From contig SVRW01000013.1 of assembly GCA_015064625.1 (NCBI GenBank), positions 1 through 63,680 of the forward strand: DNA of 63,680 bases. Reading direction: 5' to 3'. Position 1 is the stretch's first letter; each line of letters begins with the position of its first letter. The DNA comes from Oscillospiraceae bacterium (lineage in GTDB: Bacteria; Bacillota; Clostridia; Oscillospirales; CAG-382). The position numbers were made by a program, and so were the translations under genes. This document shows, one piece after another, positions 2,793-11,103 of the stretch. The notes beneath the pieces were generated by a model. That model ran no database searches, was not told where the DNA came from, and saw only the letters and a list, made by a program, of their open reading frames with translations.

Positions 2793-2821
2793 TTGACAAA
2801 AATTGTTTTATGTGATATATA
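2793..2821 (+). promoter_or_regulatory. Promoter of the cobalamin riboswitch operon
   Basis: A consensus TTGACA (2793-2798) and TATATA (2816-2821) are spaced by 17 bases. Transcription would start near 2828, just before the first conserved bases of the riboswitch. Confidence 0.75.
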
Positions 2822-2829
2822 TTTATCAT

Positions 2830-3043
2830 AAAACCGAATAATTGATAAGAAAAGTACGGTTTGAAAAGTTGTAAACTGAGTAAATGAAAAGGGAATCCGG
2901 TTCGAATCCGGAACAACCGCCATTACTGTATTTGACGAGAGAAAGCACATAGTCCATTGGGATACCCCGAGAAGGAGTGTTTTTTGCATTTTTTTGCTAT
3001 GTCATAAGTCAGGATACCTGCCGTATTTTTTAAGGTTTAACAC
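2830..3043 (+). promoter_or_regulatory. Cobalamin (B12) riboswitch
   Basis: The leader carries the conserved core of the adenosylcobalamin riboswitch family: GGGAA followed by GGTT and GAATCC, then ACTGTA (about 2891-2930); a CCATTGGGATACC..GAGAAGG segment (2954-2976); and the B12 box AAGTCAGGATACCTGCC (3006-3022). Consensus order and spacing are intact. It follows a strong promoter and precedes a terminator hairpin, so it most likely shuts off the downstream genes when cellular cobalamin is plentiful. Boundaries are approximate. Confidence 0.93.
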
Positions 3044-3134
3044 GTTTTGGGCGTGAAGGGTGCAACCGATTTATCGAAGCGTTATAGCAAAAAGGGCTTT
3101 TCTCGGCATTGTGCGTTCGACTCTTTTTGATATC

Positions 3135-3162
3135 GCTTTGCGGAAGCATTTTTCTGCAAAGC
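3135..3162 (+). promoter_or_regulatory. Leader hairpin between riboswitch and terminator
   Basis: GCTTTGC (3135-3141) pairs with GCAAAGC (3156-3162), with GAA/TTC pairs inside. No T-run follows, so it is not a terminator by itself. It may belong to the switching platform. The rest of the 3043-3190 leader shows only a small CACG/CGTG hairpin. Confidence 0.4.
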
Positions 3163-3189
3163 CTGTTTGACTGCGCCTTAAATCTGTTG

Positions 3190-3227
3190 TACTCTCCCGA
3201 CCTTGAAAACGGGGGAGTATTCTTTTT
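3190..3227 (+). terminator. Riboswitch-controlled intrinsic terminator
   Basis: TACTCTCCCG (3190-3199) pairs with CGGGGGAGTA (3210-3219) around a short loop and is followed by TTCTTTTT. It lies four bases before the AGGAGG ribosome site of the first coding sequence. The hairpin is the obvious output element of the cobalamin riboswitch upstream. Confidence 0.75.
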
Positions 3228-3243
3228 GAGAGGAGGTATTTTT

Positions 3244-3441
3244 TTGAATGACAATGAAAAGCTGTCCTGGGCGGTAGAACAGTTGAAGGAAAAATACGAA
3301 ACTCTTGGAAGACTTCCGAAAAAAGAAGATTTTGATGAAAAGACGAGAGCTCGTATTAAATCATTTTTAGGGCCATGGCCCAGAGCCTTGGAAAGCGCAG
3401 GCTTAAAAGAGCGAAAAAAAGAAAACAAAAAAAGGAGTTAA
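3244..3441 (+). CDS. Small HNH-repeat-like protein in B12 operon
   Basis: A 65-residue basic protein starting at TTG. The ribosome site AGGAGG at 3231-3236 has a 7-base spacer, and the nearby ATG at 3248 opens a different frame with an early stop. The sequence has the pattern of the homing-endonuclease-associated HNH repeat: an amphipathic helix, LGRLP, an acidic FDE block, then GPWPRALESAGL. Such repeats are small, probably nucleic-acid-binding helical units. It has no signal peptide or membrane segment. It is the first gene after a B12 riboswitch, followed 7 bases later by surface proteins. Function unknown; it could be a small regulator of the operon. A longer frame opening at 3109 reads through the terminator and is rejected. 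Confidence 0.65.
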   Translation: MNDNEKLSWAVEQLKEKYETLGRLPKKEDFDEKTRARIKSFLGPWPRALESAGLKERKKENKKRS

Positions 3442-3448
3442 AACAAAA

Positions 3449-4261
3449 ATGAAAAAACTTTTAGTATTATTTTTAATGGCTGTATTATTTATCAATTCTG
3501 CGGTTACTGTTTTTGCAAGCAGTGACAATTATGTTTATGTTTCAATCGCAAACGGAGATCTTGTTCTTGCATACGAAAATGTAAGCCTTTCGGATGCTGA
3601 TAATGATGGAAAGCTCACGATAAATGATGCTTTGTATCTTGCACATGAAGCAAAATTTGAAGGCGGAGCAGAAGCAGGTTATGCTTCCTCTGTAGGAGCG
3701 TATGGATTGAAAATTGATAAATTGTGGGGCTATGAAAATGGTGATTCCTTCGGTTATTATCTGAACAATGCTTCTGCTATGAGCTTAGGTGATGAAGTTA
3801 AAAACGGAGATCACGTATACGCTTTTTGCTATACTGATCTTGTAGCTTGGTCCGATACCTATTCATATTTTAATACAGCTTCTTCTAAAAAAGATGTAGG
3901 AGATACTTTATCCTTGGCTCTTTATTCCGCAGGATATGATGAATCATGGAATCCGATTTCTTTGCCTGTAAACAACGCAAATTTACTTGTAAACGGAGTT
4001 AAACAAGAAATTAAAACAGATGAACAAGGTAAAGCTACCGTTACATTCGATAAAATTGGAACGTACGTAATAAGTGCTGTTTCTGAATCTCAAAACCTTG
4101 TTCCTGCCGTATGTGTAGTTACGGTATCTGAAAAAAATAATGAAACAATACCTACAGATCCTGCTAAGCCTGGCGATATTTCTTCGTATGTAATTGTAAT
4201 GTATTCGGTAATTGCTATGATATCTATATTTGTTATTTCGAGAAAACGTAGAAGTATATGA
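3449..4261 (+). CDS. Membrane-anchored surface protein, DUF4430-like
   Basis: A 270-residue exported protein. Residues 1-24 form a signal peptide ending near VFAS. A calcium-binding EF-hand/dockerin-like loop (DADNDGKLTIND, 49-60) follows. The core around residues 60-140 contains GDSFGYYLNNAS, resembling the GWxxxVNG region of DUF4430/transcobalamin beta domains. A probable Ig-like segment spans about 150-228. One C-terminal membrane helix (about 247-263) ends in RKRR, anchoring the protein with its body outside. The stop overlaps the start of the next gene (ATGA), so the two are probably made together. In context it is likely an accessory ligand-handling protein for cobalamin uptake. The fold assignment is by motif only. 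Confidence 0.65.
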   Translation: MKKLLVLFLMAVLFINSAVTVFASSDNYVYVSIANGDLVLAYENVSLSDADNDGKLTINDALYLAHEAKFEGGAEAGYASSVGAYGLKIDKLWGYENGDSFGYYLNNASAMSLGDEVKNGDHVYAFCYTDLVAWSDTYSYFNTASSKKDVGDTLSLALYSAGYDESWNPISLPVNNANLLVNGVKQEIKTDEQGKATVTFDKIGTYVISAVSESQNLVPAVCVVTVSEKNNETIPTDPAKPGDISSYVIVMYSVIAMISIFVISRKRRSI

Positions 4262-5928
4262 ATTTAAAAATTTTAAAATCAATAATTTGTTTTTTTGTTG
4301 TTTTAATTATATTTAATGCGTTCACTCCATTTGGAGTGAACGCTTCGGACAAAGATATAAGCCTACAGATAACAGACGGCGTTATTTCTTATAATTTATC
4401 AGTAAGCGGATATGATTCTTTAGAAGAATGGATATATGAATATTTACCAAATGACATAGGAATATGCGCTGAATGGTACGTTTTAGGGCTTTCTCAAAGT
4501 GGAAAATACAACTTTTCCGAATATGAAAAATCACTTATTGATTATTTAGAAAACCATAAGATAAGTTCAGCATCAACAAGGTTGAAATTTGCTTTATCTC
4601 TTGCCTCGTGTAGTTGTGATGACGAATATATAGAAGCGACTCTGAATTCGTCCATGGGAAAGCAGGGGATAATGAGCTATGTTTACGGCCTTCATCTTTT
4701 AAATAACGGATTTAAACATTCGGAATACAGCATTACATCTGTAATTGATTTTTTGATTGAACTTCAGCTTTCAGATGGAGGATGGTCTTTGCGTGGAGAT
4801 ACTTCTGACGTTGACGTAACTGCTATGACTCTCCAAGCACTTGCACCTTATTATTCTGATGAAAAAATAAAAAAATCCGTAGATTCAGCAATAAATTTTC
4901 TTTCAGAAAAACAGCAAGATGACGGAGATTATATTTCATATGGTGTTTCAAATCCTGAAAGCGGTGCGCAAGTTATAACTGCTCTTTCGGCGTTGAATAT
5001 CGACTTCATGTCTGACAGCCGTTTTATAAAGAATGAAAATACTTTGCTTGACGGAATCTTAAAATATCGCTTGAAGGACGGAAGCTTTTCTCATACTTTG
5101 AACGGTGAAAGCAATAATAATTCAACAGTTCAGGTTTTTTATTCCATGATTTCTTATCAGCGAATGAAAGACGGAAAAAGCGGACTTTATATTCTTGATT
5201 CAGTTAATATATCAAAAGATCAAAGTGAAGAATCAACAGAATCAACAGAATCAACAGAATCAATAGAATCAACAGAATCAATAGAATCCGTTGAGTCAAT
5301 AGAATCATCTATGAATTCTTCTGTTGCTTCAGAAGATATTCAAACTGAAAAAGTCAGCGTAAAATTTATAATAATAATTGTTGAAATATGCCTTTTTGCA
5401 TTTTCCGTAGTTTTATTATTTCTTCTAAAAAAATTCAACTTAAAAAACTTTTTAGCTTTATTTTTAGTTTTTATAATTCTTATAATTTTATCTTTAACAA
5501 TAAAAATTCAAAGTAAAGAAGAGTATTACAATAACGAAGGAATCTCAAAAGAAAATGTTATTGGTACGGTTACTATTTCAATAAAATGTGAAACGATTAT
5601 CGGTAAAGGTGATAATAGTTATATTCCAAAAGACGGAATCATTTTGAATGAAACAGAATTTGCAATTTCAGATGGTGATACGGTATATGATATTCTTATT
5701 GAAGCTGCAAGAAAACATTCATTACAAATAGAAAATAACGGTAACGATAAAATGGCATATATTTCAGGTATAAATTATCTTTATGAATTTGATTACGGTG
5801 ACCTTTCAGGTTGGATGTTTTTAGTTAACGGAAAAGAAAGCTCTGTTGGATGTACTTCCTTTGCCTTGTCTGACGGTGATATAATAGAATGGGTGTACAC
5901 TTGTGAATTAGGTAAAGATATTAAATAA
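4258..5928 (+). CDS. Transcobalamin/intrinsic-factor-like surface protein
   Basis: A 556-residue protein with a signal peptide (1-29). An alpha-helical domain (about 35-315) carries prenyltransferase/squalene-cyclase-type repeats (GGWSLRGD, DDGDYISYG, KDGSFSHTL). An acidic Ser/Thr linker of nine EST/ESI-type triplets follows (325-351), then two membrane helices (about 370-390 and 398-416) joined by a short basic loop. A C-terminal DUF4430 domain (about 430-550) contains the hallmark SGWMFLVNG. Alpha-alpha barrel plus DUF4430 is the layout of animal intrinsic factor, haptocorrin and transcobalamin, which clamp cobalamin between the two domains. The helix hairpin would place both domains outside the cell. 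Its position in a B12-riboswitch operon with an ECF transporter supports cobalamin capture. Binding itself is inferred. Confidence 0.8.
   Translation: MNLKILKSIICFFVVLIIFNAFTPFGVNASDKDISLQITDGVISYNLSVSGYDSLEEWIYEYLPNDIGICAEWYVLGLSQSGKYNFSEYEKSLIDYLENHKISSASTRLKFALSLASCSCDDEYIEATLNSSMGKQGIMSYVYGLHLLNNGFKHSEYSITSVIDFLIELQLSDGGWSLRGDTSDVDVTAMTLQALAPYYSDEKIKKSVDSAINFLSEKQQDDGDYISYGVSNPESGAQVITALSALNIDFMSDSRFIKNENTLLDGILKYRLKDGSFSHTLNGESNNNSTVQVFYSMISYQRMKDGKSGLYILDSVNISKDQSEESTESTESTESIESTESIESVESIESSMNSSVASEDIQTEKVSVKFIIIIVEICLFAFSVVLLFLLKKFNLKNFLALFLVFIILIILSLTIKIQSKEEYYNNEGISKENVIGTVTISIKCETIIGKGDNSYIPKDGIILNETEFAISDGDTVYDILIEAARKHSLQIENNGNDKMAYISGINYLYEFDYGDLSGWMFLVNGKESSVGCTSFALSDGDIIEWVYTCELGKDIK
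5230..5310 (+). repeat. Nine-base tandem repeat encoding EST/ESI linker
   Basis: Nine consecutive 9-base units related to GAATCAACA (with GAATCAATA and more diverged copies at the 3' end) lie in frame inside the transcobalamin-like gene. They encode the Glu-Ser-Thr/Ile linker before the membrane hairpin. Changes in copy number would alter linker length without breaking the frame. Confidence 0.85.
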
Positions 5929-5941
5929 AAGTGAGGAAAAA

Positions 5942-6810
5942 ATGAGAGGATTTCGGATATAAATCCATTTGCACTGTTTTTATATTTTGTGTTCGTTTCC
6001 GCTTTGCCAATGTTTTGTGGCGATGGTATTATATATTTAATATCTTTTTTAGGGGCTTTATCTTTATATCTTTTCAGAAATGGAATAAATAATCCCAAAA
6101 CTCATCTTTCCTCTTTTTTGTTTTTTCTTATTCTGACTATAATAAACCCTTTGGTATCTCATAATGGGGTTACAGTTTTATTTGTTATAAATAATTCTCC
6201 AATAACACTTGAAGCTTTGATATATGGCTTTTTTGCATCGATTCTTATTATATCAGTTTTGTATTGGTTCAGAACGTTTAGTCAGATTATGACGAGTGAT
6301 AAGCTTCTTTATATTTTTGACAGGTTTTCTCCAAAGCTCGCATTGATTATTTCAATGAGTCTCAGATATATTCCGTTGTTTGGCAGACAAATAAAAAAGA
6401 TAAATCAATGTGTGAAAGCATTAGGCTCATATAATGAAGAGAACGTTATTGATAAAGCTAAGCTTTACTTGAAAACTTTTTCTGCTATGGTGACATGGAC
6501 TATTGAAAACGGCATAATCACTGCTGAAAGTATGGATGCCAGAGGATATGGAGTGGGAAAACGGTCAAGATATTCAAATTACTTTTTTAGCTTTCCCGAT
6601 GTTATTTTTATATTGCTCACGTTTGTCTTGTTCATGTTTTCTGTGTTTTTAATTAGAAATAAAAGCTTTGAATTTTATCCTTCATTTTCGGTTTCTTTTT
6701 CTGACGAATCAATTATTGGATATGTTTTATATGGAATTATAGCTTTTGTTCCGTTGTTCATTGAAGTAAAGGAGGAATTAAAATGGAAATACTTAAAACT
6801 GAAAATTTAA
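5942..6810 (+). CDS. ecfT: ECF transporter T component EcfT, apparent frameshift
   Basis: Integral membrane scaffold of an energy-coupling factor transporter, with several hydrophobic segments and the ARG signature ESMDARGYG that couples to the ATPases. The natural start, ATG 5942 behind GAGG, reads only MRGFRI before a TAA. The conserved EcfT beginning (DINPFALFLYFVFVSALP) is in the -1 frame from 5956 on. Adding one G at GG 5955-5956 would give MRGFRDINPF, the expected family start. Without it, the first usable in-frame start is GTG 5989, which would lose the NPF segment. This is either a real single-base loss or an assembly error. The 3' end overlaps the next gene by 28 bases. Confidence 0.85.
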
Positions 6811-8393
6811 CCTTTACTTATGCTGGGAAAAAGCAACCAACAATAAAAAATGTATCTGTCAATGTAAATTTAGGGGAATTTATAACTATTTGCGGAGCAA
6901 CTGGAAGCGGAAAATCGACATTTTTAAAACTTCTAAAAAAAGAAATATTACCTTTGGGCGAAAAAAGCGGTGATGTTTTTTTTGAAGGTGAAAGCCTTAA
7001 TACAATTTCGGATTTAAAAAGTGCGTCTCACATAGGTTATGTTATGCAACGTCCTGAACAACAGATTGTAACCGATAAGGTTTGGCACGAGCTTGCTTTT
7101 GGACTTGAAAATCTTAACGTACCTAAAAATGTTATTTCAAGAAAAATAGCTGAAATGGCTTCATATTTTGGTATAGAAGATTGGTTTGATAAGAGTGTTG
7201 ATACGCTTTCGGGTGGACAAAAACAAATGCTTAATCTTGCTTCAGTTATGGTTATGAATCCCAAGCTTCTTATTCTTGATGAACCAACTTCACAGCTTGA
7301 TCCCATTGCATCCTCCGATTTTCTCTCTACTTTGAAGAAAATCAATAGAGATTTAGGGGTAACTGTTATAATTGCCGAGCATAATTTGGAAGAGCTTTTA
7401 ACCTTCAGTGACAAGTTAATGGTTTTTAACGAGGGGGAAGTTTTATTTTTTGATTCACCTGAAAACGTAATACAAAAATTATCGGAAAGTTCTCCATTTA
7501 TAAATTACCTTCCTACACCTGCAAGAATATATAAGCTTTCTGAAGTAAATGGAAAATGCCCATTGACCGTTCGCGAAGGAAGGGAATTTATAAAACAAAA
7601 TTTAAAAAATAATGATGTAGATCTTTTTGTAAAGGATATAAATACATCGAAAACAAAAGATGTATTTTTAGAATTTAAAAACGTTTATTTCCGATATTCG
7701 ATAGAGCTTCCTGACGTTTTGAGAGATTTGAATTTGAAAATATTTAGAAATGAAATTTTCTGTATTCTTGGCGGTAACGGAAGCGGAAAATCAACGCTGT
7801 TTTCGGTAGCTTCCAATCTTGAGAAACCATATTCGGGACATGTTAAAGTAAAAGGAAAGAAGCTTAAGGAATATACAAACCAGAGTTTATATAAAAATTG
7901 TATCGCTTTTTTACCTCAGGATGTTCAATCTGTTTTTCTCTCTGATTCTGTTTCTGAAGAAATTTCTGAAGAAAGCATTTCACGCTTTAATCTTGAATCT
8001 CTTAAGGATATGAATCCGTATGATTTATCAGGAGGAGAGCAACAGCAAGTTGCCATTGCAAAGGTTTTAGAAAGCAATCCTCAGATACTTTTACTTGATG
8101 AACCCACAAAGGGAATAGATAAAGCTTCTATTTTAAAAGTTATAGAAATAATTAAGGACTTGAAGAAAAGCGGAAAAACTGTTGTTATTGTAACACACGA
8201 TTTGGAATTTGCCTCAAATGTTGCTGACCGATGTGCGTTGCTTTTCAGAGGCACTATTCAATCTGTTGAAAATTCAAAAGATTTTTTCTGCGAAAATAAT
8301 TTTTATACAACGGTTGAAAATAAAATGACAAGAGATTATCTTTCAGGAATAGTTACGTTTGATGATTTAAAGAATGTTTTTGAGATAAAGTGA
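6783..8393 (+). CDS. ECF transporter ATPase, fused EcfA-EcfA'
   Basis: A 536-residue protein made of two ABC ATPase domains in one chain. Domain 1 has Walker A GATGSGKST, signature LSGGQKQM and Walker B LLILDEP. Domain 2 (from about residue 300) has GGNGSGKST, LSGGEQQQ and ILLLDEP. All catalytic motifs are intact in both halves. In ECF transporters two such domains, usually separate EcfA and EcfA' proteins, power vitamin uptake. The ribosome site AAAGGAGG lies inside the end of ecfT, and the small S-component gene follows 11 bases later. Given the riboswitch, cobalamin is the likely cargo. Confidence 0.92.
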   Translation: MEILKTENLTFTYAGKKQPTIKNVSVNVNLGEFITICGATGSGKSTFLKLLKKEILPLGEKSGDVFFEGESLNTISDLKSASHIGYVMQRPEQQIVTDKVWHELAFGLENLNVPKNVISRKIAEMASYFGIEDWFDKSVDTLSGGQKQMLNLASVMVMNPKLLILDEPTSQLDPIASSDFLSTLKKINRDLGVTVIIAEHNLEELLTFSDKLMVFNEGEVLFFDSPENVIQKLSESSPFINYLPTPARIYKLSEVNGKCPLTVREGREFIKQNLKNNDVDLFVKDINTSKTKDVFLEFKNVYFRYSIELPDVLRDLNLKIFRNEIFCILGGNGSGKSTLFSVASNLEKPYSGHVKVKGKKLKEYTNQSLYKNCIAFLPQDVQSVFLSDSVSEEISEESISRFNLESLKDMNPYDLSGGEQQQVAIAKVLESNPQILLLDEPTKGIDKASILKVIEIIKDLKKSGKTVVIVTHDLEFASNVADRCALLFRGTIQSVENSKDFFCENNFYTTVENKMTRDYLSGIVTFDDLKNVFEIK

Positions 8394-8404
8394 GGGAGTT
8401 TTAG

Positions 8405-9091
8405 ATGATAGTTATTAAAAATTCCTCTTTGAGAAATGTTCTTCGAATAATAATACCTTTTATTATTATGCCTTTGGTTGTCCTGATTGGTGCTATATTT
8501 TTAAACGAAAAAAGACATTTGTTTATTTCTCTCGGGCTTGTTTTTTTGTCTCTGATTTTCTTTGTTTCAGGAGTAGAAAAGAAGAACCTAGGCACGCGAA
8601 GACTTGTTATGGTTTCCGTAATGACTGCTTTGTGTGTAGTTGGAAGATTTATTCCTTTTTTTCAACCAATAACAGCTATTACTGTTATAACTGCAATATA
8701 TTTGGGAGGAGAGTCTGGTTTTCTTGTTGGAGCTTCTTCTGCATTTTTATCTAATTTCTATTTTGGACAAGGTCCTTGGACTCCGTTTCAGATGTTGGCG
8801 TGGGGACTTGTTGGACTTATAGCAGGACATCTTTCAAACCCTCTTTTGAAAAGAAAATGGCTTTTAATTTTATATGGAATACTTGCGGGTGTTTTGTATT
8901 CTTTCATTATGGATGTATGGTCAACCTTATGGTATAACGGAAGCTTCAATTTTGATTTGTATAAAGTTTCCCTTATGACCGCAATTCCTCATACAGCTAT
9001 TTATTCTATTTCCAATTTCATTTTCCTTTACATTTGTGCTGACCCTATCGGAAAAAAGCTTTCGAGAATTAAAACAAAATACGGTATATAA
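8405..9091 (+). CDS. ECF transporter substrate-binding S component (probable B12)
   Basis: A 228-residue integral membrane protein of the ECF S-component family, with about seven hydrophobic segments. The alanine/glycine-rich MVSVMTALCVVGRF stretch (about residues 75-88) and the conserved FGQGPWTPFQMLAWGLVGLIAG region (about 119-140) are visible. The S component binds the vitamin and topples in the membrane against EcfT. Position under a cobalamin riboswitch and beside the transcobalamin-like protein makes cobalamin or a corrinoid precursor the most likely substrate, as for CbrT-type S components. Specificity is inferred from context only. The gene is preceded by GAGGGAG and followed by a terminator. 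Confidence 0.85.
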   Translation: MIVIKNSSLRNVLRIIIPFIIMPLVVLIGAIFLNEKRHLFISLGLVFLSLIFFVSGVEKKNLGTRRLVMVSVMTALCVVGRFIPFFQPITAITVITAIYLGGESGFLVGASSAFLSNFYFGQGPWTPFQMLAWGLVGLIAGHLSNPLLKRKWLLILYGILAGVLYSFIMDVWSTLWYNGSFNFDLYKVSLMTAIPHTAIYSISNFIFLYICADPIGKKLSRIKTKYGI

Positions 9092-9092
9092 G

Positions 9093-9127
9093 AAAATCGG
9101 GGGTGTATTTCGCACCCCCGAAATTTT
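9093..9127. terminator. Bidirectional terminator
   Basis: CGGGGGTG (9098-9105) pairs perfectly with CACCCCCG (9113-9120). The stem is flanked by A-rich sequence on the left and AAATTTTTAT on the right, so it can stop transcription from both the B12 operon and the convergent dockerin gene. Confidence 0.85.
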
Positions 9128-11103
9128 TATTTTGTAAGTAATGAATTATCTACGAAAACAGAATTATAAGATGTGGATTTAACTGAAAAATCGTAAGAAT
9201 AAACGAGCGTTTTTCCATCATCTAAAGAAAAGCTTATTTTTGCATTATTTTCGATTATTTCGTGAGTACCTTTTTTAAAAGTAATAGCTCCGCTTGCATT
9301 TTTTAATATAAACTGTTCGTCGCTATATTTTGAGATTTCATTTTCTATGTTGGAATCCTTTGCAAGCTCCGAATTTTTTAATAGCGAAATGGCGTAATCT
9401 TTCTTCATCATGTAATCCAGTGTATACGAATCTCTATTATCAGTAAGTGAAAATGATTCAAACGTAGATATGTTATTTACTGATTCATAATGAGGCGTTG
9501 AAAAATAACCTGTTTTTTTAACTGAAAGGGATTCTGTATCTAAATCCATTGACATAATGTTTCTGTTCGTTTCAGTTATATATTTTCCATTACCGATATA
9601 AAGTTTAGTTATGTAGTCTTTATTGTTAATTGTTGTATTTGTTTCTTTATAAAGCTCAACACCGTTTTGTACGTTTTTTATGTTTGTAACGGATTCTGTG
9701 GATGCTTGTACATCTCCAATAACTAAACTTTCTTTATAAGTTGTTGAAACAGCAGACGCTATATCGAAAACATTATCGTATGCTGAAAAAGCAAATCTCG
9801 TGTGAATATTATCAACGTTTGCATACTCCGAGGATGAAGGCATAGGGACGTTAATATTGCTCCCTATATTTTCGTATAACACGTTTATAGCCACTGTAAC
9901 ATTTTTTGGTGTTCCTACACCAAGCTTTGATAACGCTTCGTCTTTTGTAGTAGAATGGATGTTAACTGATATTCCACAGAGGTATCCATCGGAGTTTACA
10001 TATAAAGTTCCATCCAAAACAATGCTTTCGAAGATGTCGTTTGTTTTAGAGTTTTCAAAATTTTCAAATCCGTATGATTCAAGAAATTCAGAATTGAAGA
10101 ATTTTGAAAGAAGTAGATTTCTTGTTTTAAAATTATAATTTGTGATTGTACCTTCTGTATCAGACTCTATTAAATCAAAAATAGATGATATTTCGGGAAA
10201 GTTTCTTCCGAGAAATTTTTCTTTGTTTACATGGGGAACAAAAACAAAGTTGCCATCAGAGTCGGTAGGGGAGGCTGTAACGTAATTTGAAAGATATTCC
10301 GATACCTCTGAAAATGAAGCTTTTACTTTGTATTTTGAATACTTATCTTGTGTATAAAGAAAACCATCACCATAATATGTTTCTGTTATAGGATAAATAA
10401 CGTTTGAAGATGCAGCATCAAGTTTGAATGAGAAGTTGGGTGTGTCAGTATTCAACGAATTGCCAAGAAAAACACCGTCTAATGTGAAATCACCAATATC
10501 TGTTGTAACGGTTGCATTTACGATAGTATTTAGCTCATTTAAATTAGAAAGCTTGTTTGCTGAATTTATTGCATCTGAAACAAGTTTTTTTCTAGACATA
10601 TAGTCTTTTGAACTTTGTATAATGTTTAATCTCAAAAAAGATGACTTAATTTTAAGAAAGTCAGTCGAATCAATGAAGCCTGAAGCATCAATATCCGCGG
10701 CTTTGAATTGAGTTTCAGATATGGTTAAAGTTTTTAAGAAAAAGCTTTTTATAATAAGATAATCTGTTGCATCGATGGCAGAGGAATAATCAACGTCACC
10801 TGTGATTATTACAGTATATCTTTCAGAATCAATATCAAAATAGCATCCCGTTGCTAAATAATCAGACTCATCTAATTTCGTGCCGTTCTCATAATATACG
10901 GGAAAGGAATCGTTGAAATTATCAGTAAATTGATTTAAAGTTGTTTCTTCAGTAACGTCAAAAATATAATTATCCGATATAACATACAGGGAATCATCTG
11001 TCAGAATTGGTGTTTCTGCTGAAGCTATGGAGAAAACAAAAGTTGAAATAATAGAACACAATGTAAGTAATATAGCTAATAGTTTTTTTGAAAAAACATT
11101 CAT
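9127..11103 (-). CDS. Secreted dockerin-containing protein
   Basis: A 658-residue exported protein with a signal peptide (1-29). A type I dockerin pair lies unusually near the N-terminus: GDVDYSSAIDATDYLIIKS (102-120) and ADIDASGFIDSTDFLKIKS (137-155). The remaining 490 residues are beta-rich repeats of the kind seen in LppX-like bacterial lipoproteins, and resemble the lipoprotein encoded just upstream. It has no recognisable catalytic motif. Dockerins dock onto cohesin modules, so the protein is probably held in a cell-surface or secreted complex. Only 12 bases separate it from the lipoprotein gene, so they form one operon. Function unknown. Confidence 0.75.
   Translation of the reverse strand: MNVFSKKLLAILLTLCSIISTFVFSIASAETPILTDDSLYVISDNYIFDVTEETTLNQFTDNFNDSFPVYYENGTKLDESDYLATGCYFDIDSERYTVIITGDVDYSSAIDATDYLIIKSFFLKTLTISETQFKAADIDASGFIDSTDFLKIKSSFLRLNIIQSSKDYMSRKKLVSDAINSANKLSNLNELNTIVNATVTTDIGDFTLDGVFLGNSLNTDTPNFSFKLDAASSNVIYPITETYYGDGFLYTQDKYSKYKVKASFSEVSEYLSNYVTASPTDSDGNFVFVPHVNKEKFLGRNFPEISSIFDLIESDTEGTITNYNFKTRNLLLSKFFNSEFLESYGFENFENSKTNDIFESIVLDGTLYVNSDGYLCGISVNIHSTTKDEALSKLGVGTPKNVTVAINVLYENIGSNINVPMPSSSEYANVDNIHTRFAFSAYDNVFDIASAVSTTYKESLVIGDVQASTESVTNIKNVQNGVELYKETNTTINNKDYITKLYIGNGKYITETNRNIMSMDLDTESLSVKKTGYFSTPHYESVNNISTFESFSLTDNRDSYTLDYMMKKDYAISLLKNSELAKDSNIENEISKYSDEQFILKNASGAITFKKGTHEIIENNAKISFSLDDGKTLVYSYDFSVKSTSYNSVFVDNSLLTK

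Follow-up and report, generated by a model that had tools for sequence, protein, structure and literature searches.

We analyzed a stretch of 63,680 nucleotides of contig SVRW01000013.1 from Oscillospiraceae bacterium (CAG-382; assembly GCA_015064625.1), called the window below, in which positions 2793 to 9127 hold a cobalamin riboswitch, the genes of two predicted surface proteins, and an energy-coupling factor (ECF) transporter. In the list of open reading frames (ORFs), those at 3449 to 4261 (surface protein 1), 4258 to 5928 (surface protein 2), 5989 to 6810 (EcfT), 6783 to 8393 (a fused ATPase), and 8405 to 9091 (the S component) all lie on the plus strand and overlap or are tightly spaced. 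The start of the gene for surface protein 2 overlaps the stop codon of that for surface protein 1, and the ATPase gene starts (6783) before the end of the EcfT gene (6810), as in a tight operon. Matches in Rfam and Pfam and at the level of the fold confirmed the original prediction that a B12 riboswitch operon here combines a transcobalamin-like protein with an ECF transporter.

The riboswitch aptamer expected at the head of these genes (2840 to 3039, plus strand) matched RF00174 over all 189 model positions with 91.9 bits, compared to a gathering score of 31.5 (E = 1.7e-21). This was the sole Rfam match within the window at the gathering threshold and the only RF00174 match across the genome (2.07 Mb in 44 contigs, 96.86% complete). 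The aptamer is separated from a small ORF by a leader of ~200 bases with a terminator-like element at 3191 to 3226 (plus strand), whose stem (3191 to 3218) and T-run, the latter read from the sequence, are present in the minimum free energy and centroid folds alike; the scanner reported the stem only as a fragment because its 10-base loop exceeds the scanner limit of 8. Upstream, a promoter-like TTGACA (2793 to 2798) and TATATA (2816 to 2821) with a spacer of 17 bases were read by eye on the plus strand. They are absent from the scanner list, as the scanner accepts a second hexamer only if its sixth base is T, and the scanner's count of 26 promoters is at chance level (mean 24.6, standard deviation 4.8). 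The unit ends with a terminator-like hairpin at 9097 to 9121 (plus strand; 10 pairs, 7 of them G-C, and a T-rich tail), a site that the scanner lists on the minus strand too. Of the predicted promoter-riboswitch-terminator unit, the riboswitch and the closing hairpin stand, and the promoter is a reading by eye.

Surface protein 2 (556 amino acids, plus strand) is predicted to consist of a signal-like helix, an alpha/alpha toroid (residues ~30 to 305), a low-confidence linker (319 to 364), two predicted membrane helices (368 to 389 and 395 to 414) forming a hairpin that divides the toroid from the DUF4430 domain, and the DUF4430 region itself (~430 to 556). Pfam placed DUF4430 (PF14478) at residues 473 to 548 (E = 4.1e-15; 56.4 bits compared to 23.8) and toroid families at ~142 to 290. 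In the AF2 model (predicted local distance difference test [pLDDT], 84.9; predicted template modeling score [pTM], 0.66), the DUF4430 region is predicted to form a helix (476 to 486) and strands at 491 to 496, 499 to 505, 518 to 523, and 542 to 548. When this model was compared to the PDB with Foldseek, ranks 1 to 15 were all transcobalamin, intrinsic factor, or haptocorrin, with a low whole-chain TM-score. Like these animal proteins, the model has an alpha/alpha toroid followed by a beta-grasp domain; unlike them, it is predicted to be membrane tethered, has a long linker and a hairpin between the domains, and gives no match to PF01122 (Cobalamin_bind). The latter had zero matches in the whole genome at E values up to 10 and was not among the 10 families listed for surface protein 2. 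A profile of 95 homologues, searched against the PDB, retrieved cyclases and chance matches and no sequence link to transcobalamin, and a DUF4430 profile retrieved the transcobalamin beta domain at rank 4 with a nonsignificant E value of 0.7, though nearly the whole domain was covered. The 50 rows of the VIA-align list for the 556-residue model did not include transcobalamin, the list being filled by one domain. The two-domain plan of transcobalamin that had been predicted for this protein is thus borne out by structural matches of the model and not by a significant sequence match. The membrane helix pair between the domains had been omitted from that description.

The hairpin loop has a net charge of at least +2 in all 95 aligned rows. 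A positively charged inner loop is predicted to place the toroid and the DUF4430 domain both outside, and one chain could therefore close on a ligand like the two domains of transcobalamin. Ten polar residues of the toroid (E72, K110, H146, N150, D186, Q193, S235, Q238, H279, and Q292) are invariant in 95 of 95 rows; on the DUF4430 side, C444 is invariant and C532 is present in 94 of the 95. These positions are leads, as candidate cobalamin contacts.

Surface protein 1 (270 amino acids, plus strand) comprises a signal-like helix, a predicted transcobalamin beta-domain fold (residues ~20 to 130), an Ig-like domain (~135 to 228), and a C-terminal membrane helix. By structural realignment of the model, its N-terminal domain is nearest to the transcobalamin beta domain, and the matches include 5np4, which is titled as a human beta domain with cyanocobalamin bound. 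Inside this predicted fold, a conserved acidic DxDxDG loop (residues 49 to 61; window positions 3593 to 3631) resembles the calcium sites of dockerins and EF-hands and suggests, from its sequence, that calcium may be bound. The protein had been called DUF4430-like, a designation compatible with its fold and operon position but without significant support from Pfam, hidden Markov models (HMMs), or profile-profile comparison. A Pfam scan of the protein gave zero significant matches; the hhalign probability was 0.5% for the whole protein and 7.6% for its N-terminal part; the best DUF4430 HMM match among 79 homologues had an E value of 0.056 (0.99 for the window protein); and DUF4430 was not among the best 25 of 29 families listed for these homologues. 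Candidate bridging homologues were rejected as well. Those of loci L040, L055, and L049 are no bridge, since their segments of the surface protein 1 type and the DUF4430 type occupy separate regions of one protein, and in L052 and L053 the matches of the surface protein 1 type land on short DxDxDG loops. Judging from its model, surface protein 1 is possibly a second beta-domain protein acting as a first-contact binder.

The remaining genes encode a complete ECF module, as predicted, with matches to CbiQ, two ABC_tran stretches, and ECF S component families. EcfT (5950 to 6810, plus strand; PF02361, CbiQ; E = 3.2e-9) has its first ATG, GTG, or TTG codon at GTG 5989, in a frame of 291 codons that is open further upstream. 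Translation may begin at a non-ATG codon, with ATT 5950 and GTG 5989 as candidates; alternatively, there may be an assembly error at this point. An ATG at 5942 has good ribosome-site spacing and is out of the EcfT frame. The 536-residue ATPase, a fused EcfA-EcfA' pair with two ABC_tran stretches, scored 333.9 bits with TIGR04520 (cut-off, 315). In three relatives (L040, 3672 to 6068; L049, 8588 to 11224; L055, 7391 to 9787), EcfA-EcfA' and the S component apparently form one frame of 799 to 879 amino acids.

The S component (PF07155/PF12822) matched CbrT (6fnp_A) with an E value of 8.5e-10 when searched against the PDB at E values up to 10; the one other match was to 4hzu and weak (0.011). With a profile of 28 rows, the E values were 2e-14 for CbrT, 5.8e-4 for 4hzu, and at least 0.44 for all six others listed. 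With CbrT as the nearest solved relative, there was no indication of an S component for a different vitamin. Homology to CbrT spans residues 62 to 227, leaving the N-terminal ~60 residues (8405 to 8590) outside the alignment; this extension is conserved, with P23, E58, and K60 invariant in the 28 rows. ECF-CbrT of Lactobacillus delbrueckii imports cobalamin and cobinamide (PMC5997447). It resembles the present system in its homologous S component and ECF architecture and differs in that CbrT, as described there, shares its module with FolT2, whereas here EcfT, EcfAA', and S are encoded in one operon with the surface proteins; CbrT also lacks the ~60 extra N-terminal residues. A second EcfT is encoded elsewhere in the genome (C31), beside two ATPase-like genes recognized by eye, and since that region holds its own EcfT and ATPase-like genes, the module of the operon is separate from it. 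With EcfT, EcfA, EcfA', and S all in one operon, this is a group I-like ECF transporter with its own module.

Linkage of DUF4430 to the riboswitch was counted in 80 genomes, the window's own included. DUF4430 was found in 69 (101 matches, one below the cut-off) and RF00174 in 41 (46 matches, one below the cut-off); 36 genomes had both, 33 had DUF4430 without RF00174, and 5 had RF00174 without DUF4430. Linkage was strong: for 28 of the 46 riboswitch matches, in 27 genomes, a DUF4430 match followed on the same strand no more than 7 kb downstream, at a distance of 305 to 4187 bases, compared to ~0.11 expected for random placement in 2-Mb genomes. One of the 28 pairs (G053) rests on a DUF4430 match below the cut-off. 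In a class-level sample of 291 genomes, surface protein 2 had a match in 109 and RF00174 in 229.

Twenty loci were fetched: 16 belong to the 28 linked pairs, and in the other 4, DUF4430 occurs in the absence of RF00174. EcfT, EcfAA', and S lie downstream in 14 of them (L036 to L041, L047, and L049 to L055) and do not follow in L042 (contig end), L043 to L046, and L048. The order of the five genes in the window recurs in L036, L037, L038, and L054 (in L038, the contig ends within the S gene), and the single-chain toroid-hairpin-DUF4430 form, judged by length and match, is present in 8 of the 14 (L036 to L039 and L051 to L054). In L040, L049, and L055, a protein matching surface protein 2 but lacking a significant DUF4430 match (518, 506, and 518 amino acids, respectively) precedes a DUF4430 protein encoded separately (170 to 191 amino acids), and the class-level sample also shows the toroid and DUF4430 parts as separate frames, e.g., in G362. 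The single-chain form may have arisen by fusion of the two genes of such a clamp, an origin that would add weight to the view that the parts work together. The operon of L054 carries an AdoCbl-II riboswitch (RF01689 at 4067 to 4141; 38.7 bits compared to 36.5) in place of RF00174 and thus seems able to swap the riboswitch class yet keep B12 control. L052 and L053 gave only subthreshold AdoCbl matches, possibly due to chance (30.6 and 29 compared to 50), and none was listed for L051. Two further loci, L043 (1530 to 2499) and L044 (9347 to 10241), have, in this order, a riboswitch, a short DUF4430 protein, and a small membrane protein that looks, by eye, like an S component (family HMM E value of 0.07 in L043, no match in L044); no ECF module was found adjoining.

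A small gene between the leader and the gene for surface protein 1 had been overlooked. It is an ORF of 65 codons (3244 to 3441, plus strand) with a TTG start preceded by GAGGAGG, and its longer reading (3109 to 3438) matched HNH_repeat (PF18780) in Pfam with an E value of 6.7e-10. The gene is kept in 6 of the 20 fetched loci (L036, 1367 to 1540; L037, 1318 to 1491; L038, 5524 to 5724; L039, 2604 to 2741; L050, 1693 to 1884; L054, 4389 to 4514), with E values of 1.2e-9 to 2.6e-24, and in all six it is located downstream of the riboswitch and ahead of the first surface gene. Among 10 loci measured, the gap between these two was 379 to 437 bases in the 5 with the HNH_repeat ORF and 109 to 244 bases in 4 of the 5 without it; in the fifth, L047, the surface ORF as called overlaps the riboswitch. 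Our guess is that the product could be a nucleic-acid-binding regulator of the operon. On the other side of the operon, facing its terminator, the minus strand (9127 to 11103) encodes a 658-residue protein that has a dockerin type I domain and begins with a signal-like stretch.

The only DUF4430 match in the genome is that of this operon. The sole TP_methylase found is RsmI (TIGR00096 above the cut-off), and thus no corrin-ring methylase of the TP_methylase family was found in the genome. Three proteins with B12-binding domains are encoded: a 212-residue corrinoid protein (TIGR02370 below the cut-off), a 512-residue protein with B12-dependent radical S-adenosylmethionine (SAM) families below their cut-offs, and a 526-residue protein with a radical-SAM-like cysteine motif recognized by eye. 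Ribonucleotide reductase was considered as the source of the B12 requirement and rejected, with zero PF02867 matches in the genome. A FecCD (BtuC-type) permease was not found above the cut-off in the genome (one match, 22.8 compared to 26.5 bits). Read from sequence, this gene content fits an organism that uses and imports corrinoids.

Systems of this kind have been noticed before. Burroughs et al. (2007; PMC1796856) described bacterial surface proteins with SLBB and toroid domains, often accompanied by a second SLBB protein and generally encoded in operons with CbiO/CbiQ, in hosts usually without key enzymes of B12 synthesis, and they proposed B12 scavenging and transfer to animals. The idea at the center of the original prediction is a rediscovery, because B12 scavenging was already proposed there. 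The present system shares with those described in that paper the toroid and SLBB protein, the second surface protein, and the operon with a CbiO-like ATPase and a CbiQ-like permease; it differs in the membrane hairpin between the domains, the counted riboswitch linkage, and the CbrT-like S component. A term search of the text of PMC1796856 gave no mention of riboswitch, S component, or HNH. Control of B12 transporters, whether known or predicted, by B12 riboswitches is well documented in general (PMC3766115), ECF Ni/Co systems are treated in PMC2667541, and DUF4430 is mentioned, as far as the text of PMC4350170 was covered, for fish proteins only. Another close system is RUMGNA_00854 of Ruminococcus gnavus (3u7z), a deposition labeled as a putative metal-binding protein. 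The expectation that the arrangement was undescribed thus holds for biochemistry, since no biochemical study of it was found in searches of an open-access library, but not for comparative genomics, in which a prediction was published in 2007 (PMC1796856). What is added here is the riboswitch linkage count, the CbrT-type S component, the membrane-hairpin single chain, the fold of surface protein 1, and the HNH_repeat gene.

Taken together, it is quite likely that this riboswitch operon provides two predicted surface proteins and a dedicated ECF transporter that serially capture and import cobalamin or a related corrinoid at low B12. Bound adenosylcobalamin would repress the operon through the leader terminator; at low levels of the coenzyme, this terminator would fail to form, and transcription would continue into the genes. 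Both surface proteins would be exported and then anchored. A beta-domain would probably be the first to touch the corrinoid, the toroid would then close over the ligand, and the clamp would hand it over to the CbrT-like S component alongside in the membrane, which EcfT-EcfAA' would empty inward, driven by ATP like other transporters of the ECF type. What we observe is limited to the parts being present, their predicted fold, and their linkage; that they bind the ligand, in which order they touch it, and that it is handed over is what we infer. A more specific version is tentative and holds rather less than even chances in our view: a single-chain, membrane-hinged B12 clamp, its two outer domains joined by the membrane hairpin and closing over cobalamin next to a CbrT-type S component, would receive the ligand from a second beta-domain receptor. 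This would form a three-step Gram-positive relay (receptor, clamp, ECF importer) that mirrors, and is possibly co-descended with, the animal B12 carriers. Still somewhat less probable is a variant of serial capture in which the true ligand is not cobalamin but a different corrinoid (cobinamide or another cobamide), with the clamp serving to pick or exclude variants. Riboswitch control would reflect the need for the coenzyme rather than the imported form, and ECF-CbrT transports cobinamide too (PMC5997447).

The surface proteins might instead bind no B12. In that case, the toroid would be a protein-binding or enzyme-like scaffold and DUF4430 a binder of wall polysaccharide; the pair would anchor or organize the transporter, leaving the capture of cobalamin to the S component alone, as with CbrT. 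Indeed, the toroid alone, aligned by VIA, matched best with cyclases, epimerases, and glycoside hydrolases, ECF-CbrT is characterized as working by itself (PMC5997447), and SLBB domains are thought to bind further ligands, which was also a reviewer's concern in PMC1796856. However, the match to the two-domain animal B12 carriers outranks all cyclases in Foldseek, and DUF4430 is linked to the riboswitch; we regard such a scaffold as unlikely. The toroid alignment could also point to a relative of terpene/squalene cyclases or prenyltransferases acting on a membrane lipid, as could the Pfam families Prenyltrans and SQHop_cyclase_C, barely over their cut-offs, and weak PDB sequence matches to hopene and drimenyl cyclases. 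DxDD is the catalytic motif of class II terpene/squalene cyclases, but at the aligned place 95 of 95 rows have DVDV or similar and never DxDD (one row has DxDD elsewhere in the first 330 residues), which argues against the scaffold reading as well. With export and outward topology predicted and a B12 riboswitch in front, an enzyme of this kind is very improbable.

In the usual description, an ECF importer takes its substrate directly from solution through the S component, and in other bacteria BtuB/BtuG or BtuF provides a capture step. If serial capture by the surface proteins is true, Gram-positive anaerobes that are unable to build the corrin ring would have a step comparable in role. The 2007 proposal of a bacterial origin of the animal B12 carriers would become testable with compact, expressible proteins, and the uncharacterized DUF4430, which is so widespread among the genomes compared here, would have a ligand, at least in this context.

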